From the IMG/VR virus record IMGVR_UViG_3300028388_002359, positions 1 to 35,915 of that record: a stretch of 35,915 nucleotides of DNA. One strand, given 5' to 3'. Within the stretch, counting starts at the first letter, position 1; each line of letters begins with the position of its first letter. The translations under genes were made by a program, and so were the position numbers. The stretch is from a virus. Below the pieces are notes generated by a model that worked only from the letters and a program-made list of their open reading frames with translations, had not been told where the DNA came from and searched no databases. This document shows positions 2-19,490 of this stretch, one piece after another.

Positions 2-3000
2 GTGAATGGTTCAGGTACAACCTTCTCTAAGATCCTCAAAGTTGGCGATGTGTTCCGTCTTTTCCCGCCCGACACCGAGCTAAAAGGTTACTTTGAGGCC
101 TCAGATGTCGACGACACTCAAGACGAAATTTTGGTTGCCAACCACCCATTTGTTGATGGTGAGTCAGTGGTCTTTAACGCTGGCTCTGGCGGACGACGAA
201 TCGGTATCGCCCGAATTCAAAGTTCTGGCACCACTCGTTATATCTACACCAGCGAGACGCACGGGTTTAGCGTTGGTGAGCAAGTTACTATTGAAGGACT
301 TAGCAGTGATGATGCAGAAGACTTTGAAGGTACCTACACAATCACATACATAAATGCTGGAAACCGCGAGTTCCGCTACACAGCTTCGGAAAGTTTCACG
401 CTCAGCGTGGAAAACCAGGACTGGGGAGCTGTGGCCATCCAAGAAGGATCTGACGGAGTTCCGCCTGCCCCGCTAGTAAACAATAAGTACTACTATGTCA
501 ATCGACTTGATGACACTGCGCTAAGAGCAATCACCGCTCGTTACCGTACAAACAATGTGGTTCGTATTACAACTTCCACGGCACACGACCTGCAGCCAGG
601 AAATGTGATCACAATCGAAAACATCACTGGTGTGAGCCCCGAGGTCTTTAACGGAACCCACACGATTATTGCCGTTCCCTCTAGCACCACCTTTGAGTTC
701 AACTCAGAGGGTGGAAACATTTCTAACGCTGGAGTTAGCGGAGATGTCACTACATCGAGTAGTAACCGTGTAACTCTGCACCCAAGCTATGAAGATGCTC
801 TAGCAAACACAAACAAGATTGACATCGCTACTACAGGTTCTGGGTCTCAGCTTTACTTGAACCACATAACTCCAACCGCACCAATTATTCGAGAGATTAC
901 AGCGGTTGGATCGGACGAGCAGGTCACTGTTAATCGTTCGTACACAACCGCATACGAAAATGTTTCGTACTCGTACCCGACCTTCGTGTACGTTCGCCCT
1001 CAGGGGTACTCACTGCACCGACCGTTCGACGGTGGTGTGGAGATGTCTACAGGATTTAACACCTGGTACGGCTCGATTGTCCGTCAGACTCGTAAGTACT
1101 TCCGTTACCAGTCAGGTAAGGGTATTCAAACTTCGGCTGCTGTTAACTTCAAGCCCAGCATCGACATTGAGACGATGTTCCGAGTGGGGACCTCGAACGT
1201 CATTCAAATTCGTACCCGACGCCCACACGGTCTCATCAATGGTCTGTTTATTAGAGTGGACGACGCCAAGGATCAGTACGGCGTAGATAGTCCTGTCTAC
1301 AACGGAACCTTCCAAGTTACGGTCATTGACTCATTCAACGTCACTGTCATTTCACAGCAGCCAATTGTTGAGCCCGTAGTATATGGATTCCCAAGACTGC
1401 ATGTTAATGCTTGGACAAACGGAGCTATTCGTGCGGGTATGTTTGACTTCCAGAACGGTATGTTCTACGAATTTGATGGTCAGAAGCTCTATGCTGTCCG
1501 TCGCTCTTCAACGCAGCAGATTGCTGGAACCATTGCTTGTTTGCAAGGCTCTGAGAAAGTCTTTGGTACAAATACGGCATTTGACACTCAGCTAGAAGTC
1601 GGAGACTACATAGTTCTTCGAGGTCAGTCTTATCGTGTTGCTGACATCGAGTCCGCAGAAAGAATGACTATTAAGCCCGAGTACAAGGGTGCTTCTGGTA
1701 ATGAGTTCGAGTTTGATCCCGCTACTACCGTAAACACTGCTACTGATACATTCAACATCATCAGTCACGGGTACACACAGGATCTTCCTGTTGTCTACAA
1801 CTCTATTGACGGAGAGCCAATCGGAGGACTAGTAAACGGAAGAACGTACTATGTAAATTTCCTTACTAGTAATTCTTTCCGACTCAAAGCAAATCCCGAT
1901 GCCTCAACTTATGTAAATCTTTCGACTCAAGGAACTACAAACGTTCACTCGTTTATTCCTGCTAAGACGGGTATTATTGGTACTCTGACCGTAGACACCA
2001 AGATTCCCCAGGAAGACTGGAGTCTGGACCCCTGTAACGGAAGTGGTCCGACTGGCTACAACCTTGACCTGTCCAAGATTCAGATGATTTACATGGACTA
2101 CTCTTGGTACGGTGCGGGTAAGATTCGCTTCGGGTTTAAGACCACAAGCGGTCAGGTACAGTACACCCACGAGTTTACACACAACAACCAGTTGTTTGAG
2201 TCCTACTTCCGTTCTGGTAACTTGCCAGCTCGCTACGAAGTCACGACCTTTGCGGATCCGACATACATTCCGTCGCTGTTCCACTGGGGTACATCGGTCA
2301 TCATGGATGGTGAGTTTGATGATGACAAGGCTTACTTGTTCACTAAGTCGAGCCAGACGCTAACTATTGGTGGTACGACGTCGAAGACGTTCGGTTCTAA
2401 CGCAGTTAACCGCATCCTTGACACTATCAATATTCCGTCGCACGGTTTTGAGGACGGAAACGCTGTTCAGTTCTTGGGCCTTGGTAGTAACGGATTACCC
2501 CAAAACAACAGCAGAAACCCGCGCACTCAGTTTATTTCGTCATACAACCCCTATGACTACTTAATTAACGAGAATGTCTACTATGTCAAGACTATTGACG
2601 ACAACAACATTGCGCTAACAGCAACTGAGGTGGACGCTACTCGAACAGAAGCACCAATTACCAATATGACCAAGTCAAACTACTTGGTCACAGTTGACAC
2701 AAGTGGTAACCACAACTTGAATGTTGGTGACTATGTGCTGATTTCTGTTAGCCCTCAGTACAGCAACTACCTTGCATATTCTGGTGTGTTCAGAGTTCAT
2801 CAGCGTGTGGATGCAAACACATTCCGCTACTACTCATACAACTTCCAAAGAAGTAGCAGCACTATTAATAACCCGCAGAATTCGTTCTTCCAGCGGAATG
2901 TTATTAACTTCTACAACAGTGGAAACTCGCAGTCTACGTACAGGCTATCTCCACAAGGTTCGTTGAATAACACATCTGGTGCAAACTATCAGCCGCTGAT

Positions 3001-3451
3001 TTCGCTCCGCTTGAGCCCGTCAGTGTCTGAAGGTTTGACAGGTGCATTGGGTGATCGTGACATCATCAACCGAATGCAGTTGCGACTGCAGGAGGTCGGT
3101 GTTCAGACAGACCAGCTGGTTGACGTTAAGGTTCTGCTAAACGGACGACTTAACAACTTGAACTTCGTGGGAGTGGAATCACCTTCTCTGGTTCAAGTCG
3201 TAGAGCACACGTCTAATGACACAATTTCTGGTGGTATTCAGGTGTATAACTTTAAAGCATCTGGTAACCAGGGTGAAGAGCAAGCTACCAACGTAGATGT
3301 TAGCGACCTGTTTGAGTTGTCTAACTCGATTCTCGGCGGAGACTCGGTCTTCCCCGACGGCCCAGACATTATTACGATTGCAGTGGCACGTCTTACGGGA
3401 CAGCAAACCCTCTGCTCCGCTAGAATGTCATGGGCTGAGGCTCAGGCGTAA
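2..3451 (+). CDS. Very large virion/tail appendage protein, probably 5'-partial
   Basis: No enzyme motif is visible. The protein (1149 residues as read) is built of beta-rich modules. At least three copies of a module with an HGF/HDL/HGL core, a G..V turn, then F[ND]GT and T.F.[YF] are seen, around residues 78-126, 184-233 and 396-455, and a weaker one is near 895-950. A second recurring motif, N..YYV..[IL]......L, occurs near residues 160, 620 and 860. The same HGF module occurs in three minus-strand tail proteins of this window, so I infer a structural tail or baseplate appendage. The only possible start at the window edge is GTG at base 2, without visible ribosome binding site, so the gene probably begins outside the window. 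It ends 12 bases before the first collagen-like fibre gene, suggesting one operon. The exact role is unknown. Confidence 0.6.
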   Translation: MNGSGTTFSKILKVGDVFRLFPPDTELKGYFEASDVDDTQDEILVANHPFVDGESVVFNAGSGGRRIGIARIQSSGTTRYIYTSETHGFSVGEQVTIEGLSSDDAEDFEGTYTITYINAGNREFRYTASESFTLSVENQDWGAVAIQEGSDGVPPAPLVNNKYYYVNRLDDTALRAITARYRTNNVVRITTSTAHDLQPGNVITIENITGVSPEVFNGTHTIIAVPSSTTFEFNSEGGNISNAGVSGDVTTSSSNRVTLHPSYEDALANTNKIDIATTGSGSQLYLNHITPTAPIIREITAVGSDEQVTVNRSYTTAYENVSYSYPTFVYVRPQGYSLHRPFDGGVEMSTGFNTWYGSIVRQTRKYFRYQSGKGIQTSAAVNFKPSIDIETMFRVGTSNVIQIRTRRPHGLINGLFIRVDDAKDQYGVDSPVYNGTFQVTVIDSFNVTVISQQPIVEPVVYGFPRLHVNAWTNGAIRAGMFDFQNGMFYEFDGQKLYAVRRSSTQQIAGTIACLQGSEKVFGTNTAFDTQLEVGDYIVLRGQSYRVADIESAERMTIKPEYKGASGNEFEFDPATTVNTATDTFNIISHGYTQDLPVVYNSIDGEPIGGLVNGRTYYVNFLTSNSFRLKANPDASTYVNLSTQGTTNVHSFIPAKTGIIGTLTVDTKIPQEDWSLDPCNGSGPTGYNLDLSKIQMIYMDYSWYGAGKIRFGFKTTSGQVQYTHEFTHNNQLFESYFRSGNLPARYEVTTFADPTYIPSLFHWGTSVIMDGEFDDDKAYLFTKSSQTLTIGGTTSKTFGSNAVNRILDTINIPSHGFEDGNAVQFLGLGSNGLPQNNSRNPRTQFISSYNPYDYLINENVYYVKTIDDNNIALTATEVDATRTEAPITNMTKSNYLVTVDTSGNHNLNVGDYVLISVSPQYSNYLAYSGVFRVHQRVDANTFRYYSYNFQRSSSTINNPQNSFFQRNVINFYNSGNSQSTYRLSPQGSLNNTSGANYQPLISLRLSPSVSEGLTGALGDRDIINRMQLRLQEVGVQTDQLVDVKVLLNGRLNNLNFVGVESPSLVQVVEHTSNDTISGGIQVYNFKASGNQGEEQATNVDVSDLFELSNSILGGDSVFPDGPDIITIAVARLTGQQTLCSARMSWAEAQA

Positions 3452-3463
3452 AGGGGGCCGCAG

Positions 3464-4552
3464 ATGGCAATTCAAAGATTGGCTGCGGTTCGACCCCAGG
3501 TCAATATCGAAGCTGGGCTGTACACATTTCCTGCTAGTTATTTGGTTTCAGTTATTGTTGCCAATATTTCTCCTTCTTCTACACCTATCCCGCAGGTAGA
3601 CATTTATGTTGTTCCCTCGGGAGCGGAGACCGAAGGGTCTTATGTATACATTGCAAACAATCTAACTGTTGGATTTGGGCAAAGCTATGAAACATTTCGA
3701 TTTGCCGTAAATCCAGGAGACGCGCTGTTTGTTCTTTCTACAGCAGCAAATGTCTCTGTTAGCTTGTACGGAATTGTGCAGGATGATGCAGTTGGTCAAG
3801 GAGATCTTGCCCAGACATTTACAAATAAAGTTATTCGTGGAGTAAACAATACTGTTTACGTCGACAAAGGAATTACAGCCGACCGCAGAGGGGACGCTGA
3901 AGAGGGGTATCTTCGGTACAACACCGACTACAGAGCTCTAGAAGTTCTAACTAACGAGGCTTGGGAGCTTGTCGGAACGGGCACGGGAGACGGAGCTACT
4001 GGACCGACTGGTCCTACTGGTGCCGTGGGGGACACTGGACCCACTGGACCGCAAGGAGACTCTGTTACTGGACCTACTGGTCCTACTGGTCCCTCGGGAG
4101 GCCCCACGGGTCCAACAGGTGCTACTGGACCCACTGGACCTGGCGGCGGGGCAATTGACGTTGCCGACACTACAGATGCAACAACTTTTGTTGGGCTTTA
4201 TGAGGATGCCACTGGAACTATTGGCGGTAAGACTAACTCAGGTATTACATACAACGCCAGTACCGAGACGCTTGCAGTAACAGCAATTGAAAGTGCATCA
4301 ATCAATGCTCCACAAACTCTTACGGGTACGTATACTCTGACCTCCCCAACAACGATCACTTTAGATCCAACAGATGAAGTCATTGCTGATGCACCAATAA
4401 AGCTGGTGAGCAAGACAGTGACAGAACTTGGGTCGCTTACTTCAAGTATCGGAGCAATGGTCTACTGCACTGACGAAACTGATGGCGCAACACTAGCTTT
4501 TTACGATGGTACTGACTGGCGGAGGGTGAGCGACCGAGCGGTGGTCAGCTAG
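3464..4552 (+). CDS. Collagen-like tail fibre protein 1
   Basis: A 362-residue fibre. Residues 1-115 form a globular beta-rich domain that is clearly paralogous to the N-terminus of the second fibre at 6163 (shared YETFRFAV and [IL]ASNLT/IANNLT stretches), probably the attachment domain. Residues 175-229 are Gly-X-Y collagen-type repeats dominated by GPT. Residues 230-362 form a C-terminal tip ending in the common phage-fibre pattern [13 protein letters not shown]...[12 protein letters not shown]. Gly-X-Y repeats trimerise as a collagen-like triple helix in known phage fibres; that this one does is inference. The ATG is preceded by AGGGGG. The stop TAG shares one base with the GTG start of the protease, so translation of the two is probably coupled. 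Confidence 0.8.
3986..4150 (+). repeat. Collagen-like Gly-X-Y (GPT) repeat tract, fibre 1
   Basis: In-frame Gly-X-Y triplets, mostly Gly-Pro-Thr, with near-repeated nine-base units of the type ggt cct act. The codons for the triplets vary (gga/ggt/ggc, ccg/cct/ccc), so the repeat is conserved at protein level more than DNA level. The opposite strand therefore shows a long open frame that is an artefact. Confidence 0.9.
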
Positions 4553-6123
4553 TGCCCGAGTATAAAGAATACACAGTAACCACTTCAGATATATCAAAAA
4601 GTCAAGAAATAGTTTCTGACTTGACTACAGCGATGCCCACCCCTGCGACTATTCCCGACAGGGAAGTACAGATAAAAAACGAGCGCCCCATAAATCAAAG
4701 AAATACTTCTTTCTGGCTTACTGACGAGGAAGCAGAAGTACTTCGTCAGGATCCTCGGGTAGAAGCTGTAGAAAATTTAGATGAGTTTCGCCCACATAAA
4801 AAAGCTTTTCAAGATGGAACATTTGACAAGCTAACTACAGAAACAGGTGAAAAACAAAACTGGGGGCTACTCCGCCACATAAGCGCTACTAATAATTTTG
4901 GCACTTCATCCTCTGATCCTGGAGGAACATATGATTATGTTTTAGATGGAACAGGAGTAGATGTTGTCATTGTAGACAGCGGAATCGAAGTAAACCACCC
5001 TGAATTTGAAGACGCCGAGGGAAACAGTCGAGTTCAGCAAATTAACTGGTACACCGAAAGCGGAGTATCAGGAACTATGCCTGCTGGTTTTTACGCTGAC
5101 TATGACGGGCACGGAACACATGTTGCTGGAACCGTTGCTGGTAAGACTTTTGGCTGGGCTAGAAACGCCAATATTTACTCAATAAAATTAGCTGGTTTGG
5201 AAGGACCAACTGATCCCTTACCAGGACTGTCTGCTTCTGATGCCTTTGATTGCATTCTGGGCTGGCACAACAGCAAAACAAACGGCAATCCCACTGTTGT
5301 TGTAAATAGCTGGGGTTACATAGTTTATTGGGACCAAACAAATGATGAGCTTACCTTCAACGAAGTAACCTACTACCCAGTGACAGGCGGATCATACCGA
5401 GGTTCCGCGCACACAGACACCAACAAAGACCCATCCAAAGGTCTTACTGGCCAGCTTGCGGACACTTCTTTGTATGTTTTTAACTACCCAGTAGCCTCGG
5501 TAAACGCTGATGTTGCTCAGCTAGTCAATGCTGGGATTGTTGTTGTAAACGCTTCGGGCAACGGCAACGTTAAGCATGACGTAAGTGGCGGCGCTGACTA
5601 CGACAACTATGTAACTGCTACTGGTTTTCCAGGATCTAACTTTTATTACCAAAGGGGAGGAGCCCCGCATTGCGGGTCTAATCCAGGGTTTCAAGTCGGT
5701 GCTACTGGAACAAACTTTATTTCTGGTGTTGAGGCAAAGTCTGTTTACAGCGACTCTGGACCAGGGGTAAATGTATATGCTGCTGGGGACCGCATTATGA
5801 GTTCGATGAGCACAACGAATGTAGACGCTTCGAGCTATCAATACAATCTTGACGGCGGCTACAAACAGCAAAGATTGTCTGGAACTTCTATGGCTACTCC
5901 TCAGGTGGCTGGCTTGTGCGCTTTGCTACTTCAAGCTCATAGAGACTGGACACCAACTCAAGTTTTTGACTGGATAACTAAAAACTCAAAAAGTGTCTTG
6001 CACTCTACTGGACTAGACAATGATTATGCCACTACATCTAGTTTGCACGGAGGGCCAAACAGAATGGCCTACTTTCCTATGGTTGGACGCAGACCGTACC
6101 AGCTTGAAGAACAGAGCGTGTAG
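4552..6123 (+). CDS. Subtilisin-family serine protease (peptidase S8)
   Basis: A 523-residue subtilase with an intact catalytic set: Asp142 in VIVDSGIEVNHPEF, His187 in DGHGTHVAGTVAG, oxyanion Asn337 in NASGNGN and Ser446 in GTSMATPQVAG. The first about 80 residues resemble an I9-type propeptide/inhibitor (residues 57-73, TDEEAEVLRQDPRVEAV, is its typical end), so autoprocessing is likely. No signal peptide or membrane segment is visible. The GTG start overlaps the stop of fibre 1 by one base. It lies between two paralogous collagen-like fibre genes, so I infer a virion-associated protease that either processes the fibres or digests host surface protein. It is unlike the usual phage head-maturation proteases (ClpP-type or U35), and capsid genes are on the other strand. 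Family assignment is secure; the biological role is inferred. Confidence 0.93.
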   Translation: MPEYKEYTVTTSDISKSQEIVSDLTTAMPTPATIPDREVQIKNERPINQRNTSFWLTDEEAEVLRQDPRVEAVENLDEFRPHKKAFQDGTFDKLTTETGEKQNWGLLRHISATNNFGTSSSDPGGTYDYVLDGTGVDVVIVDSGIEVNHPEFEDAEGNSRVQQINWYTESGVSGTMPAGFYADYDGHGTHVAGTVAGKTFGWARNANIYSIKLAGLEGPTDPLPGLSASDAFDCILGWHNSKTNGNPTVVVNSWGYIVYWDQTNDELTFNEVTYYPVTGGSYRGSAHTDTNKDPSKGLTGQLADTSLYVFNYPVASVNADVAQLVNAGIVVVNASGNGNVKHDVSGGADYDNYVTATGFPGSNFYYQRGGAPHCGSNPGFQVGATGTNFISGVEAKSVYSDSGPGVNVYAAGDRIMSSMSTTNVDASSYQYNLDGGYKQQRLSGTSMATPQVAGLCALLLQAHRDWTPTQVFDWITKNSKSVLHSTGLDNDYATTSSLHGGPNRMAYFPMVGRRPYQLEEQSV

Positions 6124-6162
6124 TAAACTAGATTATAGAATTGGAATGGAAGTGACTTTGTA

Positions 6163-8325
<2,163 letters not shown>

Positions 8326-8339
8326 CTTTTTGGGTTCTT

Positions 8340-8375
8340 CTCTGTTATAGTGTTTATAGCACTACGACAACAGAG
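8340..8375 (+). promoter_or_regulatory. Compound inverted repeat upstream of the methyltransferase gene
   Basis: CTCTGTT (8340-8346) pairs with AACAGAG (8369-8375), and inside it TAGTG (8348-8352) pairs with CACTA (8360-8364), leaving a seven-base loop. It lies in the only gap (58 bases) between fibre 2 and the three-enzyme block, and ends nine bases before the ATG. No U tract follows, so it may be an attenuator, an operator or an mRNA structure rather than a simple terminator. A TATAGT hexamer (8346-8351) overlaps it, but no convincing -35 box is present. Confidence 0.4.
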
Positions 8376-8383
8376 ACACAGGT

Positions 8384-8962
8384 ATGAACTCTACACCCAA
8401 CTGGTTTAAAAACGACGGCGAAAAAAATTTTAGTGAGCAACTAGCTCATTTATCCGCACGACCGTGTAGGTTACTTCAGATTGGAGCCTACACTGGCGAT
8501 GCTAGTGTTTGGATGTATAACAACATCCTTTACTACTACGAAGACTCCGTCCTCATCGATGTTGATACCTGGGAAGGATCAGACGAACCAGCTCATCACG
8601 AAATGAACTGGTCCTCGGTAGAGACTATTTACGATGCAAAAACTGCTGCAGCTCGAAATTCTAGACAAATAGTCAAGTTCAAGGGAACGAGTGACTGGTT
8701 CTTCAAGAACAACATGCAAGAGTATGACTTTATCTATATTGATGGCGATCACACTGCTCCTTCTGTGATGAAAGACGCTATGAATGCTTTTGATGTCTTA
8801 AAGCCAGGCGGAATAATTGCTTTTGACGACTACCAGTGGTCTGCTGGTCTGGGGACTAACAAGGAGCCCCGAATGGCCATTGACGCTTTCTATGGCATGT
8901 ACATGGAACGAATTGAAGTCTTAGTAAATGACTACCAGTTTTGGGTGAGGAAAAAAGGATGA
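8384..8962 (+). CDS. Class I SAM-dependent methyltransferase
   Basis: A 192-residue protein resembling the Methyltransf_24-type phage methyltransferases. The glycine loop is LLQIGAYTGDAS (residues 30-40), followed by an acidic strand end in LIDVDTWEGSDE, and a DFIYIDGDH motif before the LKPGGIIAFDDY strand, all typical of the fold. Substrate is unknown; relatives in phages are often beside glycosyltransferases and sugar-modifying genes. The start is ATG 8384. The stop overlaps the halogenase start as ATGA, so the two are translationally coupled and probably act together. I see no DNA-methyltransferase motif such as (D/N)PPY, so a small molecule, sugar or protein target is more likely than DNA. 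Confidence 0.8.
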   Translation: MNSTPNWFKNDGEKNFSEQLAHLSARPCRLLQIGAYTGDASVWMYNNILYYYEDSVLIDVDTWEGSDEPAHHEMNWSSVETIYDAKTAAARNSRQIVKFKGTSDWFFKNNMQEYDFIYIDGDHTAPSVMKDAMNAFDVLKPGGIIAFDDYQWSAGLGTNKEPRMAIDAFYGMYMERIEVLVNDYQFWVRKKG

Positions 8963-10536
8963 GCTATAAAATTTTGATCGTTGGCGGTGGCACTGCTGGG
9001 TGGGCTTCAGCCCTATACGCCAGATACAAAATGCCTAGCGCTGAAATTACTTTAGTGGAGTCAGACTCTATTGGAATCCTCGGGGCTGGAGAGGGAACAA
9101 CCCCTGCATTTATTGAGTTTCTAGAGAAAATCGATATTCCTCTTGCCAGACTAATTCAAGAAACCAGCACCACCGTGAAAAACGGAATTAAATTTACCAA
9201 CTGGACTGGACCAGACTCTTCGTACTACCACGGGTTTTATGCGGTAGATGATGTCAGTCTTGGGTCTTTCAATAACTCCCAGTTTATGGCTGGAACAAGT
9301 TTCTTGGCTGGATACAACATTGCAAAGGGTAAAGACTTTTCTGAGGTTAACTACACTCATGCGATAAGTGAAGGCAACAAAGTACCTCTTCAAGTAGCAG
9401 AAGACTATAACGGAGAGATTATTCCTGACCCCATTGCTAAATACTTTTTTACTGCTTACTATGCAAACCACTTTGACGCTGTAGCCTTGGCTGATTTCTT
9501 CAAGAGAATTGCTGTCGAAGAAAGAAACATCACCAGAGTCGAAGGCAAAGTCGTTGATCAAAAGCAAAGCGAGAACGGAGACTTAAAGTCTGTTTTGCTG
9601 GAGTCTGGTGAAGAACTTTCTGCTGATTTCTTCATAGACTGCACAGGATTTGCAAAACGTCTTATCGGAAAGCTTTACAAAGCCAAATGGGTAAGTCACA
9701 AAAAACATCTAACCGTTAACTCTGCTTTACCATTCTTTTTACCCATAGACGAAGATGCTATACCCGCCTACACCGAGTCCACTGCAATGAAATACGGCTG
9801 GATGTGGAAAATTCCACTCCAGCACCGCTACGGCTGCGGATACGTCTTTGACTCCAACTACATAACTCAGGAGCAAGCACGCGAAGAAATTCTCGAGCTA
9901 GTCGGTGATCAGGAGATCGTTTGGCCTAGGGAAGAAGCCTTTAAGTTTGAGCCAGGATATTTTAAAACCAGCTGGGTCAATAATTGTTTGGCTGTCGGGC
10001 TTTCTTCGGGATTTATTGAGCCCCTCGAGGCAACCTCGATCTGGGCTTCTCTTCTTTATCTAGAGCACGCTTTCCTGGACTTGAACGGATTAATTAATAG
10101 GCCACAGAGCTACGTTGACGAGTTCAATGCTAAAGCAGCAAAGATTAATCAAGATATTTTTGAGTTTGTTTACTTCCACTATATGGGCGGAAGAACCGAT
10201 ACACCGTTCTGGGAGCACTACCAAGACGTAGATAAGGCGCCCAAAAGAGTGCAAGACATACTACAAAAATGGTCTGAAAGAGTTCCTTCTTACTGGGACC
10301 ACAAGGATGATCTTTTTGCGATGGAAAGTTGGATTGCCGTTGCCTCGGGTCTAAACAAAATAGACAAAAAGGTCTACAAACAGACCTACGATCTTTGTGA
10401 AGTAACAGAAATTATTGATAACGACTACGAACTTTTTCTTCACGTAAAAGAAGCAACCGTAGATAATTGCACACTGCATGCCGATTTTTTGCGGGATCTA
10501 AAGAAAAACTATGTACCAGTAAAGCAAATTGTTTAG
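8959..10536 (+). CDS. FAD-dependent (tryptophan-type) halogenase
   Basis: 525 residues. The flavin-binding motif is VGGGTAGW (residues 8-15). The signature W-x-W-x-I-P is present as WMWKIP at 281-286. The catalytic lysine, equivalent to Lys79 of PrnA, appears as Lys74 in TTVKNGIKF. The active-site glutamate lies in EPLEATSIW as Glu357, with Ala where PrnA has Ser347. Such enzymes use reduced flavin, oxygen and halide to make hypohalous acid. Tryptophan-type halogenases occur in cyanophages, including the iodinating VirX1. The substrate here cannot be told. I chose ATG 8959 because it gives the ATGA overlap and a GAGG ribosome site nine bases upstream; a TTG at 8941 would add six residues. No flavin reductase gene is in the window, so reduced flavin would come from the host. 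Confidence 0.9.
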   Translation: MSYKILIVGGGTAGWASALYARYKMPSAEITLVESDSIGILGAGEGTTPAFIEFLEKIDIPLARLIQETSTTVKNGIKFTNWTGPDSSYYHGFYAVDDVSLGSFNNSQFMAGTSFLAGYNIAKGKDFSEVNYTHAISEGNKVPLQVAEDYNGEIIPDPIAKYFFTAYYANHFDAVALADFFKRIAVEERNITRVEGKVVDQKQSENGDLKSVLLESGEELSADFFIDCTGFAKRLIGKLYKAKWVSHKKHLTVNSALPFFLPIDEDAIPAYTESTAMKYGWMWKIPLQHRYGCGYVFDSNYITQEQAREEILELVGDQEIVWPREEAFKFEPGYFKTSWVNNCLAVGLSSGFIEPLEATSIWASLLYLEHAFLDLNGLINRPQSYVDEFNAKAAKINQDIFEFVYFHYMGGRTDTPFWEHYQDVDKAPKRVQDILQKWSERVPSYWDHKDDLFAMESWIAVASGLNKIDKKVYKQTYDLCEVTEIIDNDYELFLHVKEATVDNCTLHADFLRDLKKNYVPVKQIV

Positions 10537-10545
10537 GAGTATAAA

Positions 10546-11619
10546 GTGAAAGCAGCAATCTACACAATTGCCCTCAACGAACGACAGTTTGTTGACGAGT
10601 GGTTTGAAGCAGCTAAAGATGCAGACTATCTACTGATTGCAGACACTGGGTCCACCGACGGAACCGTAGAACGAGCCAGAGAGCTTGGTATTAATGTCGT
10701 AGACGTTCGCATATCGCCCTGGAGATTTGACGACGCACGCAATGCAGCACTAGCAGCTCTTCCTATCGATATTGACATGTGCATATCTCTGGATATGGAT
10801 GAAGTCATTACTCCAGGATGGAAAGAGGTTCTTACCGAGGCCTGGGAACGCGGAATCAACCGTCCCCGATACAAGCACGTCTGGTCATTCAACGAAGACG
10901 GGACTCCTGGTCTTGAATTTAGCTACGACCACATCCACGGTCGCAAGGGCTTCCGCTGGCGTCACCCAGTGCACGAGTGCATCTACTCTTACGGCATTGA
11001 AGAGAAGCAAGAGTGGCTTGACGGCATCGAAACACACCACCACCCAGACCCCAGCAAGAGTCGCTCGCAGTACCTGCCTCTCTTGGCAATGTCCGTCAAG
11101 GAAGATCCCTACAATGACCGCAACGCGTTCTACTACGGACGAGAATTGTACTTTTATGGTCGCTACATAGAGGCAGCACAGGAACTTAAGCGCCACCTAG
11201 AGCTTCCTACGGCTTCCTGGGCCCCCGAAAGAGCAGCTTCTATGCGTTTTATCGGGAAATCTCTTCCAGCGGAAGCAGAGCACTGGTTCCAACGAGCAAT
11301 TGCCGAGGCTCCAGGGCGTAGAGAGCCTTTTGTGGACTTAGCCAAGCTATATTACAACCAGCAAAACTGGGCAAAATGCCTTGAAGCCTGCGAAGGAGCT
11401 CTTGAGATCAAAGAAAAGCCCCTTGAGTACCTCTGCGAGGCCGAATCGTGGGGGTACGCTCCCTGGGACTATGCTGCAATTGCTGCCTACAACCTTGGTC
11501 AATATGAAAAAGCAGCCGAGTACGCTAAGAATGCTCTGGAGATTGAACCAGAAAACGAAAGACTAAGGACTAACTTTGTTTTCTGCGATAGAGCGGCAAG
11601 CGAAGCTATTTCTTCTTAG
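10546..11619 (+). CDS. Family 2 glycosyltransferase with C-terminal TPR-like region
   Basis: 357 residues. The N-terminus is a GT-A domain: IYTIALNE at 5-12, LLIADTGSTDGT at 29-40, and the metal-binding DxD as SLDMDE at 81-86. The C-terminal half (about 190-345) contains helical TPR-like repeats, for example AAEYAKNALEIEPENERL. GT2-plus-TPR architecture occurs in protein glycosyltransferases such as the SunS group, and in many phages. I infer transfer of a sugar to a protein or phage product, with the Thr-rich GPT repeats of the neighbouring fibres as one possible acceptor. The start is GTG 10546 with AGGAG six bases upstream, nine bases after the halogenase stop. Its 3' end overlaps the convergent WhiB gene by 14 bases. 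Confidence 0.85.
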   Translation: MKAAIYTIALNERQFVDEWFEAAKDADYLLIADTGSTDGTVERARELGINVVDVRISPWRFDDARNAALAALPIDIDMCISLDMDEVITPGWKEVLTEAWERGINRPRYKHVWSFNEDGTPGLEFSYDHIHGRKGFRWRHPVHECIYSYGIEEKQEWLDGIETHHHPDPSKSRSQYLPLLAMSVKEDPYNDRNAFYYGRELYFYGRYIEAAQELKRHLELPTASWAPERAASMRFIGKSLPAEAEHWFQRAIAEAPGRREPFVDLAKLYYNQQNWAKCLEACEGALEIKEKPLEYLCEAESWGYAPWDYAAIAAYNLGQYEKAAEYAKNALEIEPENERLRTNFVFCDRAASEAISS

Positions 11620-12127
11620 ACTTCTTGGCCTTGCTGGCCTTTTTGGCCTTTTCTCGGAGACGTCTTTCTGTTCTCTCGGTTTTCATTGCTTTGTAGGCGT
11701 GCACAGCATTTACGCTAGTCCTGCTTCGCCACGCAAAACCGCACACTGTACATGTAACTATTTTGGCTGTAGTCCATCTGCCACCGCCAGGCACCTCGAT
11801 AGAGCTCGTTTCAAGTTTGGAAGGTCGAGCGGTGCAGTATGGACAATGAGGAAATCTTCTTCGTCGGGCTTCTTCTCCCTTATAAGAGACAGAGAGCGCC
11901 CTTCGCATCTCAACTTCGTCTCTTCCGCCCCAGATTCCCCAAATCTGTTTGTGCTCTAGAGCCCACTGAAGACATTGCTTCCGCACAGGGCAACTAAAAC
12001 AAATGTGCTTTGCAGCATACTTTTCTTTGGGATTTTTTGAGAAGAACCACTCTATAGCTTTTTCGTTTTCTTTCTGAGCGCACAGAGCTTCTTTTTGCCA
12101 TCGCAAATTACTAGCAGCTACCCACAC
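11606..12127 (-). CDS. WhiB-family protein fused to a zinc ribbon and a lysine-rich tail
   Basis: 173 residues, longer than typical WhiB proteins (about 80-120). The iron-sulphur cluster cysteines are Cys16, Cys43, Cys46 and Cys52 (C-F-S-C-x5-C), followed by the G[VI]WGG turn as GIWGG (64-68) and a basic stretch. After this there is a second motif, C95-x2-C98 and C126-x2-C129, which looks like a zinc ribbon, then a tail rich in Lys/Arg that ends in KKSKKK. WhiB proteins bind a 4Fe-4S cluster and the primary sigma factor to tune transcription. The start is GTG 12127; a downstream TTG at residue 9 is an alternative. It may bind DNA or RNA polymerase of the host. The zinc ribbon and tail are unusual. 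Confidence 0.85.
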   Translation of the reverse strand: MWVAASNLRWQKEALCAQKENEKAIEWFFSKNPKEKYAAKHICFSCPVRKQCLQWALEHKQIWGIWGGRDEVEMRRALSVSYKGEEARRRRFPHCPYCTARPSKLETSSIEVPGGGRWTTAKIVTCTVCGFAWRSRTSVNAVHAYKAMKTERTERRLREKAKKASKAKKSKKK

Positions 12128-12176
12128 ACTTCTATTGTACTAAAGCGGGTTATATTATGTCGGCACAACACATAAA

Positions 12177-12515
12177 TTATATTTGCACCCACGTGATGAG
12201 AATAACTTCGTCAACCTTGTCGCCGTACGCCGTCATGCCATCTTCGTCGCAGGTTGACAAAAAGACCTCCCCGTCGACAGCGCCAGCATAGCCCTCTGTT
12301 GCTTCCGAGCCCTCTAAAAGTTTGAACCCGTCCGAAAGAGAATCTGCAATTCCGTCTCTTTGCAGAGTCGAGGCTAAAGCTCTACGAACAACTTCGTGCT
12401 CTAGGTCTACGTGGCCCACGGTGTAGTAGGTGTGGTCCTTGTCGTCACCTAAAGAATACGAATGATCGCCATCCCAAACCATCCACAACTCTTCGCCAGG
12501 TCTTTTGTCTCTCAA
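12177..12515 (-). CDS. Hypothetical acidic protein
   Basis: 112 residues, not recognised. Acidic, with repeated His/Asp-rich motifs near the N-terminus (WDGDHSYSLGDDKDHTYY), no membrane segment and no cysteine cluster. The TTG start overlaps the TGA stop of the upstream gene and is preceded by a GAGGAAGAAGAG purine run; an ATG at residue 12 is the alternative start. Its coupling to the 103-residue protein suggests they are made together. Confidence 0.55.
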   Translation of the reverse strand: MRDKRPGEELWMVWDGDHSYSLGDDKDHTYYTVGHVDLEHEVVRRALASTLQRDGIADSLSDGFKLLEGSEATEGYAGAVDGEVFLSTCDEDGMTAYGDKVDEVILITWVQI

Positions 12516-12823
12516 TACTCTTCTTCTTCCTCGGGGTCGATGCTAAACCCCGTGTACTCCGAGTATTCGTTGCTTTCCTCTTCGCCTTCCCCGAAAACAA
12601 TCTTAGGATCTGTCACCTTATAAATTCCAGCGATTGTCAGAGACTTACACTCTTCGCAGTTTTCTACCGCTCCTGTCTTAACGTATTGAGGACTGGAAAC
12701 ACCCTTTAGTCTTAGTTTGATGTTTCCACCGTCATCTACGCTTTCTGGCTCCCAGCTTGAGTTCTCCTTGATCCAGCAAGCTTCGCATACGGGAACAAGT
12801 TTCTTCATTTGCTCGGAACTCAT
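12512..12823 (-). CDS. Hypothetical protein with two CxxC pairs
   Basis: 103 residues. Two cysteine pairs, VCEACW (residues 12-17) and NCEEC (55-59), suggest a small zinc-binding fold. The C-terminal third is very acidic (ends in a run of Glu). No function recognised. The ATG is only six bases after a perfect TATAAT (12830-12835 on the minus strand), while the nearest ribosome-site-like AAAAGG lies 12 bases upstream, so leaderless translation is possible. It lies between the two WhiB genes. Confidence 0.6.
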   Translation of the reverse strand: MSSEQMKKLVPVCEACWIKENSSWEPESVDDGGNIKLRLKGVSSPQYVKTGAVENCEECKSLTIAGIYKVTDPKIVFGEGEEESNEYSEYTGFSIDPEEEEEY

Positions 12824-12829
12824 ACTGCA

Positions 12830-12835
12830 ATTATA
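12830..12835 (-). promoter_or_regulatory. TATAAT -10 element, possible leaderless promoter
   Basis: A perfect TATAAT on the minus strand, six bases upstream of the ATG of the 103-residue gene, so the expected transcription start would fall at the A of the ATG. Leaderless mRNAs are common in Actinobacteria. No good -35 match is seen 16-18 bases upstream, so this is tentative. Confidence 0.3.
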
Positions 12836-12839
12836 CCTT

Positions 12840-13142
12840 TTATATAGGAGTAATACCCAGGTTGCGTCTTCTTGCGTGGTCTTTTTGTTTTCTGATGTTC
12901 ACTCTGTCTCGAGGACTTAGCCCTCCCCACATCCCAAATTTTTCGTTTTTCTCTATCGCCCACAGTGCGCATTCTGTTTTGTGCTCGCATTCGTTGCAAA
13001 CTTTTCTTGCGTAAGTGTAGTCTGCTTCTACCATTGCAGATAACTGCGGATCGTCAGGATCTTTTGGAAAAAATAAATGAGTTCCAACCTCTGCGCATAG
13101 AGGGCTTTCAAATTCCCACGGTGGCCTAACTTCATCGCTCAT
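12840..13142 (-). CDS. WhiB-family transcriptional regulator
   Basis: 100 residues, ordinary WhiB length. Cluster cysteines are Cys16, Cys49, Cys52 and Cys58 (CNEC-x5-C), followed by the conserved turn as GMWGG (70-74) and a basic C-terminus (RKQKDHARRR) that could touch DNA. Phage WhiB proteins, such as WhiBTM4 of mycobacteriophage TM4, can act against the host WhiB2 and cause exclusion of other phages; whether this one does is unknown. ATG 13142 has AAAGGAA upstream. It differs in sequence from the WhiB at 11606 outside the core, so the two are not recent duplicates. Confidence 0.92.
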   Translation of the reverse strand: MSDEVRPPWEFESPLCAEVGTHLFFPKDPDDPQLSAMVEADYTYARKVCNECEHKTECALWAIEKNEKFGMWGGLSPRDRVNIRKQKDHARRRNLGITPI

Positions 13143-13168
13143 GTAGGGTTCCTTTCTATATTTTGTTT

Positions 13169-13420
13169 TTACTTGCCTACATCCTTTATTCGAGCTATAA
13201 CCTCTGCAACATAGTCGTAGTCACTTGCAGCGTCATTAGTAGGTGAGACCGTCACGTCCCAGTTGACTTTGCTCTTGTAGCTTTCGTCTACTAATTCTTC
13301 TTCAAGATCGTCTTCGTCGTGGGCATTACGAAAAAACTTTCCAACGGTGTTCTCTATCTTTTGGATGATGTCTTCGTAGTTGTCGCCGTACACTTGAAAT
13401 TGAAGAGTAGTTGTTTTCAC
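13169..13420 (-). CDS. Hypothetical small protein
   Basis: 83 residues, not recognised. Predicted mix of strand and helix, with a central acidic stretch (DEDDLEEELVDES). The GTG start overlaps the upstream stop as GTGA and is preceded by GGAGGGA, a strong ribosome site, so it is very likely translated with the 138-residue protein. Confidence 0.6.
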   Translation of the reverse strand: MKTTTLQFQVYGDNYEDIIQKIENTVGKFFRNAHDEDDLEEELVDESYKSKVNWDVTVSPTNDAASDYDYVAEVIARIKDVGK

Positions 13421-13833
13421 TGTCCCTCCACCAATTTTTCCATCACCTGAGGGGGGTAGTGAGCACCATCAAGAAAAGGTGCTTTTCCATCAGTAGACTT
13501 AAAAATGACGTCTCCATACCTAACGGCAACTACTTTGCCTCGACGTCCATTGTGGATCTTCCCGCCGTTCCCATCGTAAGCATCAGCTTTGATTCGAACT
13601 TCGTCGCCTACTGTAATGGCTCCTGGGCGCAGATCGGCCCAGACCTCGTTTTTCTTGTCTTTTACAAACGCGTGGCCGAGAGCCAGCTTAGAAAACATTT
13701 CCACGGTTTTTTCGTGAAATTCTTCTTCGAGCTCTAGCTCCTCGAAAAACTCTAGGAGCTTCATTGTGGCATTGCCTACTGGTTTACGGACTCTAGCAGC
13801 CTGTAGCTGCTCCTTGATCCATTGAATATCCAT
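13417..13833 (-). CDS. Hypothetical protein with KOW/SH3-like segment
   Basis: 138 residues. The N-terminal half is helical and rich in Glu (LLEFFEELELEEEF). The second half (about 74-118) has the look of a small KOW/SH3-type barrel: ITVGDEVRIKA followed by HNGRRGKVVAVRYGDVIF. KOW-like folds often bind nucleic acid, but I cannot assign a function. ATG 13833 has AGGAG upstream. Coupled to the 83-residue gene downstream. Confidence 0.6.
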   Translation of the reverse strand: MDIQWIKEQLQAARVRKPVGNATMKLLEFFEELELEEEFHEKTVEMFSKLALGHAFVKDKKNEVWADLRPGAITVGDEVRIKADAYDGNGGKIHNGRRGKVVAVRYGDVIFKSTDGKAPFLDGAHYPPQVMEKLVEGQ

Positions 13834-13856
13834 TGTTTTCTCCTTGTTTTCTTATA

Positions 13857-14885
13857 CTATGACGTGACGGCAGACTTAGCAAAATCGAGGTCTGAAACGA
13901 ATTTTTCGCCCCCATGAGTAACTGCTTTTCTGTACTCTTCGGCTTGAGCAGACGCCAAAAGAACTCTTTCTTCAGAAGAAAGACTTTCTACTGCAGAAGG
14001 CAGAAAGCTCCAGCAGTCGCCGAGAACTTTAGACTTTGTCCAGTCTGTTGCAACGGGAACCCCCAACGACAGAGACAGTGCAATTGATGGAGACCACCAA
14101 GCGTGGTTTGACCTGTATATAGGTGCCAAAGTACCAACAGCCTTGCTAATCCTGTACTGAACGGAAAGAACATCATCCCACTTAGACTCTTTAGTTTTCA
14201 CAACGCTGGAAACTAGTTGTCTCTGAGTTTTCTTGACCCACTTTGTGTTTAGGGTGTCAGATACAAAGTACTTATTTTCTACTTCCTCGGGCTCTACAAG
14301 ATTCGACGAAGCGGTTAATAGATACTTATCCAAGTTCATCGGAACAATTTTTTCGATGGGAATCGTAGGTAGTTCTTTGTGTATTTCGTCTGGATAAGTC
14401 CACGGCAGGCTGGTGTAAAAAGTGGTGGGCCACTCTCCGTAGTTCAAGTAATACAAAAAGTCATTTACTTCACGCTCCACCCGAGGATCGGAGACATACT
14501 CTTTGTACCCCGCCCGAGACTTGTAGAAATCTTTTTTCAAGTTTTTGGGGCTGGACTGTAGGTTCTTAAGACCAGCGTAAATTTTGTAGGGTTCAGGGGC
14601 ATCTATGAAAAGAGCTAAATTTCCATTTTTTCTGGCTTTGTTGCCCACGGAAAAAGCCCCATAAGTTTTGCTTGCACCAAGGCTTCCAGGAGAAGCTACG
14701 CCGACTAGAACAAGATCGTATTCGTTTAATTCTTCCTGGGTGGTGTCTACAGAGGGCTCAGAAAAAGTTACATCAATATTGTGAGACTCTAGCGCCTTTG
14801 TGATTAAAGCTCCCGCCGTGGGGTAGCGAGACGCTGCTTTGGTTGATGCTTGGGAAGATGTGCATCCAGTTACAAAAATCTTCAT
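13857..14885 (-). CDS. Uncharacterised protein, possibly GT-B glycosyltransferase-like
   Basis: 342 residues. The N-terminus (KIFVTGCTSSQ) looks like the first strand and loop of a Rossmann-type nucleotide-binding half, and YDLVLVGVASPGSLGA (about 55-70) a second. Near the C-terminus, HAWWSPSIALSLSLGVPVAT resembles the donor-binding helix of GT-B glycosyltransferases, where an EALA.G.PV pattern is usual; the acidic residue is missing here, so activity is uncertain. It could be a second sugar-handling enzyme or a nucleoside-modifying protein. The start is ATG 14885, just downstream of a strong hairpin. Confidence 0.5.
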   Translation of the reverse strand: MKIFVTGCTSSQASTKAASRYPTAGALITKALESHNIDVTFSEPSVDTTQEELNEYDLVLVGVASPGSLGASKTYGAFSVGNKARKNGNLALFIDAPEPYKIYAGLKNLQSSPKNLKKDFYKSRAGYKEYVSDPRVEREVNDFLYYLNYGEWPTTFYTSLPWTYPDEIHKELPTIPIEKIVPMNLDKYLLTASSNLVEPEEVENKYFVSDTLNTKWVKKTQRQLVSSVVKTKESKWDDVLSVQYRISKAVGTLAPIYRSNHAWWSPSIALSLSLGVPVATDWTKSKVLGDCWSFLPSAVESLSSEERVLLASAQAEEYRKAVTHGGEKFVSDLDFAKSAVTS

Positions 14886-14895
14886 GGTGTCTTTC

Positions 14896-14947
14896 TTAAG
14901 TAGTTGAGGTGCCGCCAGTCCTACCTAGACGGCACCCCAACACTTAA
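14896..14947 (-). terminator. Long hairpin between the ssDNA-binding-like gene and the next gene
   Basis: On the minus strand GTTGGGGTGCCG pairs with CGGCACCTCAAC (one G-U pair), flanked by TTAAGT and ACTTAA that extend the stem. The stem begins within two bases of the stop of the extended ssDNA-binding-like frame. No U tract follows, which is common for actinobacterial hairpin terminators; it may also only reduce read-through. Confidence 0.6.
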
Positions 14948-14948
14948 A

Positions 14949-15420
14949 TTAAAAGGGAGCCGACGGAGCTGCGCTCGGAGCTGGGGAGGCAGCGGGTGCT
15001 GCCGCTGGAGCTGGAGCGGGAGCTGGGGCTGGAGCTGGTGCAGGTGCAGGAGCAGCTGCTGGAGCAGAGGCAGGAGCGGCCTGAGCTGCGCCACCAGGGC
15101 CAGCCGCAGCAGTCAAAGGGTAGTACCCCTTAATCTCGTTGCGGTCTTTTCCTTGGTAGAACCCTCATCTGAGAGAAGAAGATTCGCATAGCTTTTTCGC
15201 TCTCTGGCGAGATAACGAGGTTGTCCCACACCAAACGGTTGGCGTAGGCACCGCCCTGAACCTGGCACTTAACGGAGTACATGGTCTTTCCAGTACTTGT
15301 CGTCTTTGTGCTGGCTTCGCTGATCTTGAGGTCGTAGTCACCCTCGGGGAGCGGCTCGTAGACCTCATCTACAAGCGGTCCAGCCTTTTGCATTAGCTCG
15401 GACCAGTTAATCTGTCCCAT
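14949..15420 (-). CDS. Phage ssDNA-binding-like protein, reading frame shifted (+1)
   Basis: The N-terminal frame (15420 to 15130) gives 96 residues with a DUF669-like pattern: PLPEGDYDLKISEAS, then TMYSVKCQVQGG and LVWDNLVISPES. In the next frame the sequence continues as FYQGKDRNEIKGYYPLT followed by an about 50-residue Ala/Pro-rich tail ending PSAPF at 14949. An extra base in the GGG at 15162-15164 explains the switch: removing one G joins QMR directly to FYQGK in a 156-residue protein. The long flexible tail ending in PF resembles single-strand-binding proteins, though without their acidic tip. It lies next to Sak4-like and nuclease genes, which supports an ssDNA role. The shift may be an assembly error, a mutation or programmed. 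Confidence 0.65.
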
Positions 15421-15442
15421 CTTGGAACCTCTTTCCTTGTGT

Positions 15443-16201
15443 CTAACTTGATGTCACTTCGGGCTGTTTTGCCCCGAAGATGGTGTCCAGCATTACCTCA
15501 ATGCTGAGGTTCTGCTGCTCTACGACAGAGCCCAGGCGACCCTGAACCCTTTCACCCGCTTCATACTCCCTGGTGCGTTCGACGTACATACGACGAACCT
15601 TGTGAGGAGGCTGAAGAGGATCTTCGTTGGGGAACTCTTCCACGGTTAAGGCACCCAGCACGTCATAAAAGTACGGAGCCTGAATCGCGAGCTGTCCCTG
15701 CAGGTAAGGACGGTGTTTGCCGTCCTGGGTCACCCGAGACATCGCTGTGAGAACAACTGCCTCAAGCGGTGTGGTCGGGTGCATCGTGAGGTCACGAAGG
15801 TCACGAAGAAGACCGCCCATGTGGCGAAGAAGTTCGCCCCACTGCTGCATCTTCATCTGTTCGTTACCTGCGATGCTGTCCATGCACTTGACCTGCAACT
15901 CCGAGATGGAGTCGATGATCAAGCTCTTAAAGTGGTGGTTTCCCATTTGCAACCACTGATATGTTTTCAAGACCGTGTCATAGTCTCTCACTGGGACCAC
16001 CACGGTATCCCAGGTTCCATCAGCAGCAGGGGGTTCCTCGCGAAGAGGGTCCCAGTACTTGACTGTGATCGGGAGGAATCGATGTCCACCCTCCACGTCA
16101 AGCATCAAACGGGGGTAAGGAGCGGTAACGGCGAAGGAGGACTTACCCACCTTTGACTCGCCGTATACCATGACGGTCAAAGACCGTTGGATTTCACTCA
16201 T
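15443..16201 (-). CDS. Sak4-like RecA-fold ATPase (single-strand recombination)
   Basis: 252 residues. Walker A is GESKVGKS (14-21) and Walker B is SLIIDS (93-98), with a following TAMSRV segment that is typical of a RecA-type core. This size and layout match the phage Sak4/AAA_24 group, which promotes single-strand annealing with an ssDNA-binding partner. The gene order (ssDNA-binding-like protein, this ATPase, Cas4-like nuclease, helicase, resolvase) fits that role. ATG 16201 is three bases from the stop of the nuclease gene, so the two are probably co-translated. Confidence 0.8.
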   Translation of the reverse strand: MSEIQRSLTVMVYGESKVGKSSFAVTAPYPRLMLDVEGGHRFLPITVKYWDPLREEPPAADGTWDTVVVPVRDYDTVLKTYQWLQMGNHHFKSLIIDSISELQVKCMDSIAGNEQMKMQQWGELLRHMGGLLRDLRDLTMHPTTPLEAVVLTAMSRVTQDGKHRPYLQGQLAIQAPYFYDVLGALTVEEFPNEDPLQPPHKVRRMYVERTREYEAGERVQGRLGSVVEQQNLSIEVMLDTIFGAKQPEVTSS

Positions 16202-16204
16202 CCG

Positions 16205-18939: not shown

Positions 18940-19004
18940 TCGTCACTTCCTTTGCGTCGCTAATAAATACTAGCATGCACACTGCGATGACACGCCCAAA
19001 AATG

Positions 19005-19490
19005 TTAGTAAGATTCTTGTTGCTTCAGAAGAGCCCTAGGAATCCACTTTTTTCTGGCTAGGCCCAGTAGGGCGTGTCGAATTGCGTCAAGTGCGTGACC
19101 AGCTCCTCCGACATGCCAGAACCCCAGAGTTTTTAGTGTCGGGTTGGAAAACATATTCTTGGCGTCAGCGGGCATTTGAAAATTAATCTCTGTGTGATCA
19201 AAACCATAGTTTTTGCACAGATACTTAAGAACCCCTATCTGCTCGAGGCTGTACGGGGCTTGTGTCTTTTTTACGGTCTGTGCATTAATCGTGAACTTTT
19301 CGCATATGACATAAAAGTTGGAGTAGTCTTCCCACTTTGAAAGAAAATCGCTAATTACGTCTGGATACTCATCTTCGTTTGCTTCGTAAGATCCGACAAG
19401 AATGGGGTCTTCCTCGGGGCTTTCAGACCAGGTCATAAAACAGATGCCACTCATTAGACCTGGGTCAACGGCAAGAATTCCTACAGTCAT
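19005..19490 (-). CDS. RuvC-like Holliday junction resolvase
   Basis: 161 residues with an RNase H-type fold. Acidic residues are in place: Asp9 in ILAVDPGLMSG, Glu64 in VICEKF, and Asp135 in GGAGHALDAIRHAL. This matches RuvC-like phage nucleases that resolve branched DNA from recombination or before packaging. The ATG overlaps the polymerase stop by one base (TAATG), so it is translated with the polymerase. Confidence 0.87.
   Translation of the reverse strand: MTVGILAVDPGLMSGICFMTWSESPEEDPILVGSYEANEDEYPDVISDFLSKWEDYSNFYVICEKFTINAQTVKKTQAPYSLEQIGVLKYLCKNYGFDHTEINFQMPADAKNMFSNPTLKTLGFWHVGGAGHALDAIRHALLGLARKKWIPRALLKQQESY

Follow-up and report, generated by a model that had tools for sequence, protein, structure and literature searches.

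The question raised by IMG/VR virus record IMGVR_UViG_3300028388_002359 is why genes for three putative modifying enzymes, a methyltransferase (MT), a halogenase (HAL) and a glycosyltransferase (GT), follow the tail-fibre genes of a phage. The entire record of 35,915 bases was analyzed and is called the window here; open reading frames (ORFs) were called mechanically rather than with a trained gene finder. A run of six ORFs, all on the plus strand, encodes a fibre with Gly-Pro-Thr (GPT) repeats, a subtilase, a second GPT fibre, MT, HAL and GT. A sequence-only reading had described these six genes as co-directional and partly coupled by overlapping start and stop codons, and both descriptions were confirmed. 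The fibre 1 stop codon and the GTG start codon of the subtilase overlap at base 4552 (TAGTG at 4550), MT and HAL are joined by ATGA at 8959-8962, and HAL and GT are 9 bp apart. Our analysis favors, with a probability of roughly 0.76, the interpretation that this stretch encodes tail fibres together with dedicated enzymes for their modification, in which GT would glycosylate the GPT shafts and MT would probably cap the sugar.

The association of GT with collagen-like genes was evaluated in phages and bacteria by counting each distinct GT once; loci with an identical GT or without a recognized GT ORF were dropped. Phage loci needed 3 kb of upstream sequence and bacterial loci needed 1.5 kb on both sides, which left 48 of 80 bacterial loci. 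A collagen-like gene was found within 4 kb of GT in 29 of the 31 close phage loci, including the window and Actinomycetia phage DSL-LC01. The two exceptions were L133, which has collagen genes elsewhere in its record, and L105, which has none and whose GT lies 3.9 kb from a contig end. Among more distant phage loci, a neighboring collagen gene was seen at up to 4 kb in 19/32 and at up to 10 kb in 27/32. Of the 48 bacterial loci, mostly from Clostridia and Bacilli, 30 had a collagen gene no more than 1.5 kb away; the collagen gene was directly upstream of GT in 21/48, two genes upstream in 11/45 and at any other offset in at most 3/43. Three of the five bacterial collagen partners that were scanned contained a BclA_C domain, and the nearest bacterial collagen had Thr at the Y position in a median of 72% of its triplets (33 loci). 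The link between GT and collagen was kept despite rearrangement, since the two genes are convergent in two loci (L132 and L134) and on opposite strands in three others (L229, L287 and L300). Oppositely oriented GT and collagen genes were seen in some of the bacterial loci.

The same association was approached from the collagen side by comparing viral contigs with in-frame (GPT)3 or (GPQ)3 repeats. Six contigs with both patterns were excluded, and the first 50 of 102 (GPT)3-only contigs and the first 50 of 99 (GPQ)3-only contigs were searched. Full-length GT was detected in 14 of 50 GPT contigs versus one of 50 GPQ contigs (p = 0.0004); the numbers rose to 17 and two when weak partial matches were counted. 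Among records of at least 20 kb, full-length GT was present in 11/23 GPT and 1/28 GPQ records. These counts indicate that the GT link is specific, though not universal. In the 70 collagen proteins from loci with GT, Thr occupied the Y position in 61% of triplets (median of 0.62 per protein), and the corresponding median was 0.22 for 15 proteins from subtilase loci without GT.

The fibres of the window have the Gly-X-Y runs expected of collagen-like phage tail fibres. The shaft of fibre 2 contains 87 Gly-X-Y triplets in 12 runs, with Thr at Y in 58 and GPT in 38. The description of both fibres as GPT-rich was thus correct for fibre 2, but fibre 1 has a short shaft only, with 13 triplets of which nine have Thr at Y. 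Fibre 1, which had no Pfam match, consists of an N-terminal domain, the short GPT shaft and a C-terminal domain. The N-terminal domain is common to both fibres (local score of 191 versus a maximum of 54 in 200 shuffles).

The sequence and predicted fold of GT are consistent with an enzyme that acts on proteins. GT is a 357-residue protein with a glycosyltransferase family 2 (GT2) catalytic domain followed by C-terminal tetratricopeptide repeats (TPRs; TPR_2 and TPR_19). The DTGSxD and DxDE motifs, which include D83, D85 and E86, were invariant in 41 sequences. The AlphaFold2 model had a mean predicted local distance difference test score (pLDDT) of 95.7, with helices at residues 176 to 356. 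When the model was compared to the PDB, the top six matches were all to SunS/ThuS, at 14-16% identity. Two of these alignments covered 279-280 columns with a root-mean-square deviation (rmsd) of about 3 Å and the other four covered 376-384 columns with an rmsd of 12-13 Å, which indicates that the two domains of GT are placed differently from those of SunS/ThuS. The predicted fold of GT is nearest to that of peptide glycosyltransferases. GT also has three features of an SgtA-type enzyme, namely, a GT-A/GT2 domain with a DxD motif, a C-terminal TPR domain and a nearby GPT-rich collagen gene. Three phage contigs have tandem GT genes (L137:1594-3734, L138:950-3066 and L145:2-1737), the first copy of which is only 29-39% identical to the query.

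By analogy with SgtA, which acts on BclA3 of Clostridioides difficile spores, GT would O-link a sugar to Thr along the Gly-Pro-Thr shafts of both fibres. The sugar would probably be N-acetylglucosamine (GlcNAc) drawn from host UDP-GlcNAc. MT would probably then O-methylate the attached sugar; the identity of the sugar, the methyl cap, the residues modified and the order of these steps are inferred. The association of GT with collagens seen from both sides, the peptide-glycosyltransferase fold and the SgtA precedent make glycosylation by the phage of its own fibres, as proposed by the sequence-only reading, the most likely role of GT.

MT is, by its sequence and model, a cation-dependent class I O-methyltransferase. 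Residues G34, G38, D120 and D149 were invariant and D148 was at least 90% conserved; we take the Asp residues to be the metal site, as in relatives. A search of the PDB with the MT sequence gave no match. The MT model (pLDDT of 90) matched the folds of TomG, catechol O-methyltransferase (COMT) types, MycF and SpnH, and the highest identities among the listed top ten fold matches were to two sugar O-methyltransferases, MycF (21-22%) and SpnH (21%). Seventy-nine of 80 MT loci had a gene table and were tallied. Where MT was at least 55% identical to that of the window, GT was within three genes in all 25 loci (20/20 of those with room), and both MT-GT and GT-MT gene orders were found among relatives. 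Capping of the sugar by MT is plausible, at about even odds, because of the fold matches, the adjacency to GT at this level of identity and the occurrence of both gene orders. The part of the earlier proposal in which MT finishes the glycan therefore remains plausible.

HAL has the sequence features of a flavin-dependent halogenase: GGGTAGW, WMWKIP and EPLE are present, as is the Lys of VKNGIKF. The motifs are intact in HAL of the window, as they are in the five cassette halogenases nearest to it. The Lys and Glu of these motifs are presumably the catalytic residues. The roles of the corresponding residues are given in part in the available text of PMC8407142. The alignment of HAL to PrnA stopped at PrnA residue 434, and a second group of halogenases was encoded after GT rather than before it. 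The WxWxIP motif was changed in 12 of 14 of these after-GT halogenases, which may therefore do different chemistry. In the motif table, the window copy (L214) is counted as one before-GT row, and L011 has two halogenase genes. For the halogenase tree, near-copies were removed, which left 72 sequences; the window copy was dropped and one same-name row, taken to be from L011, was lost. The resulting tree of 70 rows contained a before-GT clade (100/100) and an after-GT clade (94/86), and many non-cassette halogenases clustered with the before-GT clade. These sequence relationships are most simply read as two or more separate entries of HAL into the module; one entry followed by later exits would be a less simple history.

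The distribution of HAL among viral records differed from that of GT. Seventy-two of the best 80 of 242 HAL loci had at least 6 kb of flanking sequence and were counted. Among these, a collagen gene was found within 6 kb in three of 65 loci without GT versus six of seven loci with GT. HAL was detected in 0/50 GPT contigs and 0/50 GPQ contigs, and the same search was positive for 6/6 records known to hold HAL and for 0/5 others. The sequence-only reading had proposed a check of whether all three enzymes co-occur with GPT fibres; the lack of co-occurrence that would have counted against it was not seen for GT and MT, and for HAL the co-occurrence was confined to some of the GT-bearing phages. 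HAL is an optional member of the module. The earlier suggestion that HAL helps finish the glycan was rejected, given these counts and the chemistry of the family, as flavin halogenases act on electron-rich aromatics. HAL would be translated between MT and GT, and it might act either on an aromatic side chain in a virion protein or on a small molecule of the host. The HAL-GT gap was 8-14 bp in the six before-GT relatives measured, and HAL and the subtilase tended to occur together (15 with both, 5 with HAL only, 5 with the subtilase only and 28 with neither; p = 2e-5, with kinship ignored).

Other observations concern the neighbors of viral halogenase genes. In cyanophages Syn9 and P-SSM2, the genes adjoining the halogenases are annotated as 2OG-Fe oxygenases and as tail-fibre assembly proteins. 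Two match lists, of 60 out of 82 and 60 out of 167 records, had eight cyanophage names in common; seven of these had a halogenase 1.7-3.3 kb from a homologue of the tail protein of the window, and the eighth, Sf-FR1, had its halogenase about 71 kb away. The cyanophage stretch also carries hli, talC and other metabolic genes. Syn9 (NC_008296 32965-36070, L678) has two tandem halogenases with tail-fibre assembly genes on one side and a run including 2OG-Fe oxygenases and minor coat proteins on the other, an arrangement suggestive of an island for virion modification. Many HAL loci (55 and 15 loci with two queries; L024, L003, L008, L113, L115, L116 and others) encode a small hydrophobic protein of some 94-117 residues, which often comes directly after HAL and was found in some cassette forms; the window had no match to it. 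Members of phrog_7084, a family of unassigned function, were within three genes of a halogenase or GT in 43 of 55 matches (for example, L106:616-1359, L122:11077-11787 and L323:7236-7904) and are candidates for another tailoring enzyme.

Sequence and comparison establish the genes and their domains, the integrity of the catalytic motifs, the fold predicted for GT and the recurrent pairing of GT with Thr-rich collagens. Several observations weigh against the step from these to glycosylated fibres. The basis throughout is sequence and predicted fold. Full-length GT was missing from 36/50 GPT-collagen contigs, perhaps in some cases because the contigs are fragments, and from 12/23 of the records of at least 20 kb; three records with Thr-rich collagens (L169, L182 and L190) had no GT by a profile search that was positive in GPT contigs. 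Conversely, no collagen gene was present within 4 kb in 16/48 bacterial GT loci, so the GT family may have other targets, and GT and MT occurred without a collagen gene in the stretches covered of L340, L342 and L356. In Gram-positive collagens generally, Thr is found at Y more often than any other residue (48%, as given in the accessible portion of PMC8968730). SgtA also takes Ser in vitro (PMC7157674, in the text available), so Thr is not a strict mark. The association counts are not independent because many of the records are related. As for MT, GT was absent within three genes in 24 of 38 loci with room when MT was less than 55% identical (present in 14/38). Ten neighbors of these MTs were scanned and gave two weak glycosyltransferase matches below the Pfam cut-off, one borderline GT2 match and one mannose-6-phosphate isomerase domain; the remaining neighbors were replication, terminase, capsid or phosphoesterase genes, with one lacking any match. 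MT itself was matched in only 3/50 GPT contigs, one of them weakly. A rival explanation that would accommodate GT loci without a nearby collagen gene is that GT acts away from the virion, on host surface polymers to block superinfection or on phage DNA to block nucleases. Such roles were proposed by the authors who described the glycosyltransferases of phages E7 and F5 (PMC10202952), and phrog_13126, the family matched by GT, is named beta-1,4-glycosyltransferase. Weighing against action on DNA or the cell wall are the link to Thr-rich collagens repeated across phages and bacteria, the BclA-like proteins among the bacterial partners and a predicted fold closest to peptide glycosyltransferases. 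We retain an off-virion GT as a rival but consider it distinctly improbable, and glycosylation of the fibre shafts is the preferred reading.

For HAL, the choice is between the virion and host metabolism. It is moderately probable that HAL is an auxiliary metabolic gene whose product acts on a small aromatic compound of the host and that it merely shares the transcript, extra genes tending to accumulate downstream of the fibres. The scarcity of collagen genes near HAL when GT is absent and the absence of HAL from GPT contigs agree with a metabolic role, as do the breadth of small aromatics used by VirX1 in vitro (PMC8407142, in the part available) and the neighbors of HAL in other phages, which often include the small hydrophobic protein after HAL and, before it, a P-loop/nucleotidyltransferase-like gene (named by eye). 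The tight HAL-GT gap, the two HAL clades at different positions in the module and the tracking of HAL with the subtilase fit a passenger gene less well. The operon position and the presence of HAL in the module in two clades favor the alternative that HAL halogenates Trp or Tyr of a fibre or other virion protein, such that all three enzymes modify the virion. The nearness of cyanophage halogenases to tail genes also favors virion halogenation, and the PrnA alignment ends before what is presumably the free-tryptophan site. The stretch in cyanophages is shared with metabolic genes, however, collagen fibres were not adjacent in most viral HAL loci examined, and most after-GT halogenases, with their changed WxWxIP motif, may do different chemistry. 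We regard halogenation of a virion protein as unlikely and the metabolic reading as the likelier of the two. The fullest version, in which one three-enzyme operon places Thr-linked, O-methylated sugars on a collagen shaft and halogenated aromatics on the same virion, is more doubtful still.

Fibres decorated by GT would be a host-recognition organ with a sugar coat invisible to sequence alone, and the coat would matter for the choice of receptor, for resistance to proteases and for the stability of the particle. If HAL does modify the virion, a similar role could be proposed for those halogenases of marine cyanophages that are encoded next to tail-fibre genes. With this module, what phage halogenases do in nature, a question outstanding since VirX1, comes within experimental reach.

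The module reaches upstream to a tail/virion protein and its right end abuts a convergent WhiB-like gene. The features of the module and its borders are listed below.

Features of the fibre module and its borders in the window
Feature	Position	Strand	Basis of assignment
Tail/virion structural protein	2..3451	+	phrog_5838 virion structural protein 3.2e-140
Fibre 1	3464..4552	+	phrog_5073 tail fiber 3.2e-13; domain and triplet analysis
Subtilase	4552..6123	+	Peptidase_S8 2.4e-27; phrog_9158 3.8e-74
Fibre 2, 720 aa	6163..8325	+	Collagen 1.9e-21; phrog_819 tail protein 6.9e-68
C-terminal tip domain of fibre 2	7900..8325	+	phrog_677 baseplate wedge tail fiber protein connector 2.5e-21
Methyltransferase (MT)	8384..8962	+	Methyltransf_24 3.3e-15; also Methyltransf_3
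Flavin-dependent halogenase (HAL)	8959..10536	+	Trp_halogenase 2.7e-104
GT2 glycosyltransferase (GT), TPR tail	10546..11619	+	Glycos_transf_2 (PF00535) 1.7e-7, TPR; phrog_13126 beta-1,4-glycosyltransferase 3.9e-116
WhiB-like regulator, convergent	11606..12127	-	Whib 2.7e-18

The true start of the tail/virion protein is probably outside the record because its ORF opens at the left end. This protein aligned over all of its 1149 residues, at 64% identity, with a segment of a longer DSL-LC01 protein. Close GT relatives in IMG/VR loci repeat, with variations, the order fibre, (subtilase), fibre, MT, (HAL), GT and whiB, with the members in parentheses optional, and a whiB homologue was within five genes of GT in 30 of the 31 close phage loci. 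The arrangement was found in many viral records and therefore is not a chance juxtaposition. Two WhiB-like genes in the window point to an actinobacterial host. A search of a phage collection with 8000-20000 detected no near DNA relative, and promoter and terminator scans of the region gave signals at or below chance. The gap between fibre 2 and MT contains a weak hairpin at 8339-8376 (-14.1 kcal/mol for 8322-8385; z of -1.6).

The subtilase, which has the D motif at residue 142, the H motif at 187 and the S motif at 444, is probably a virion-borne protease rather than a modifying enzyme, as judged from its sequence relatives. Cyanophages by name made up 50 of the 57 phage records that it matched, and a few of the matched proteins were annotated as baseplate wedge or virion structural proteins and many as hypothetical. 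Membership of the subtilase in the modifying set was rejected, since homologues were within 6 kb of a collagen-like gene in 29/51 loci without GT and some (L167 and L171/L172) were fused to a domain like the fibre tip. The tip of fibre 2 has His-Pro-Phe and Cys-x2-His-x3-Met, which by eye resemble a type-1 copper (cupredoxin) site; a Pfam search with 7987-8325 gave no match. Similar tips end the YHYH protein of DSL-LC01 and some subtilases. In one relative, a 211-residue protein with a CBM_4_9 carbohydrate-binding domain (3.9e-9) is encoded between the collagen fibre and MT (L129:7646-8281), and genes for 207-216 residues occupy the same place in other relatives (L120, L139 and L305), the domain scan having covered L129 only.

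Among phages, DSL-LC01 parallels the module in gene content: a homologue of the tail protein is followed, in the order seen in the window, by two collagen-like proteins, HAL, GT and a convergent whiB. It differs in having a 456-residue YHYH protein where the window has MT and the subtilase, and its halogenase has WVSKIP and EPLD motifs. The DSL-LC01 halogenase was interpreted as an auxiliary metabolic gene in the available text of PMC10611076. The cultured freshwater actinophages E7 and F5, which infect 'Ca. Planktophila' LanE-43, have two collagen-like proteins in a variable island together with a tail fibre, and protection of DNA or a change to the cell wall was the function proposed for their glycosyltransferases (PMC10202952). 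The role of GT as a DNA- or cell-wall-modifying enzyme is not favored for the window, given the collagen linkage described above. VirX1 of cyanophage Syn10 is, like HAL, a phage-borne member of the Trp_halogenase family (match of 8.2e-49; 28.7% identity at the best Syn10 site among the matches listed) and takes many small aromatics, as described in part in PMC8407142. Its setting would differ, judging by the annotation of the stretch examined in the related phage Syn9, where no gene is labelled as a collagen, a GT or a sugar methyltransferase.

Virion glycosylation by phage enzymes has a precedent in mycobacteriophages Che8, Corndog and Myrna, whose glycosyltransferases reportedly decorate virions, although the targets there are the capsid and tail tube (cited in the accessible parts of PMC12619734 and PMC12363180). 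No mycobacteriophage was present by name among the 67 phage records that matched GT. No report of phage-encoded glycosylation of collagen-like fibres was found in the open-licence literature, which is weak evidence of absence. SunS and ThuS, like the proposed GT, glycosylate peptides, but they are S-glycosyltransferases that modify Cys of small bacteriocins and not collagen. The proposed function has a parallel in SgtA of C. difficile, a protein of 358 residues with a GT-A domain followed by TPRs, whose gene adjoins bclA3 and which in vitro modifies GPT collagen peptides with beta-O-GlcNAc on Thr (PMC7157674, in the sections available). GT resembles SgtA, by description, in its domains, its length and its GPT-rich collagen neighbor, and differs in that the collagen is a phage tail fibre accompanied by MT and, in part of the group, by HAL. 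Thus, the module would represent a variant of a known theme, the spore-coat type of collagen glycosylation set here in a phage fibre module.

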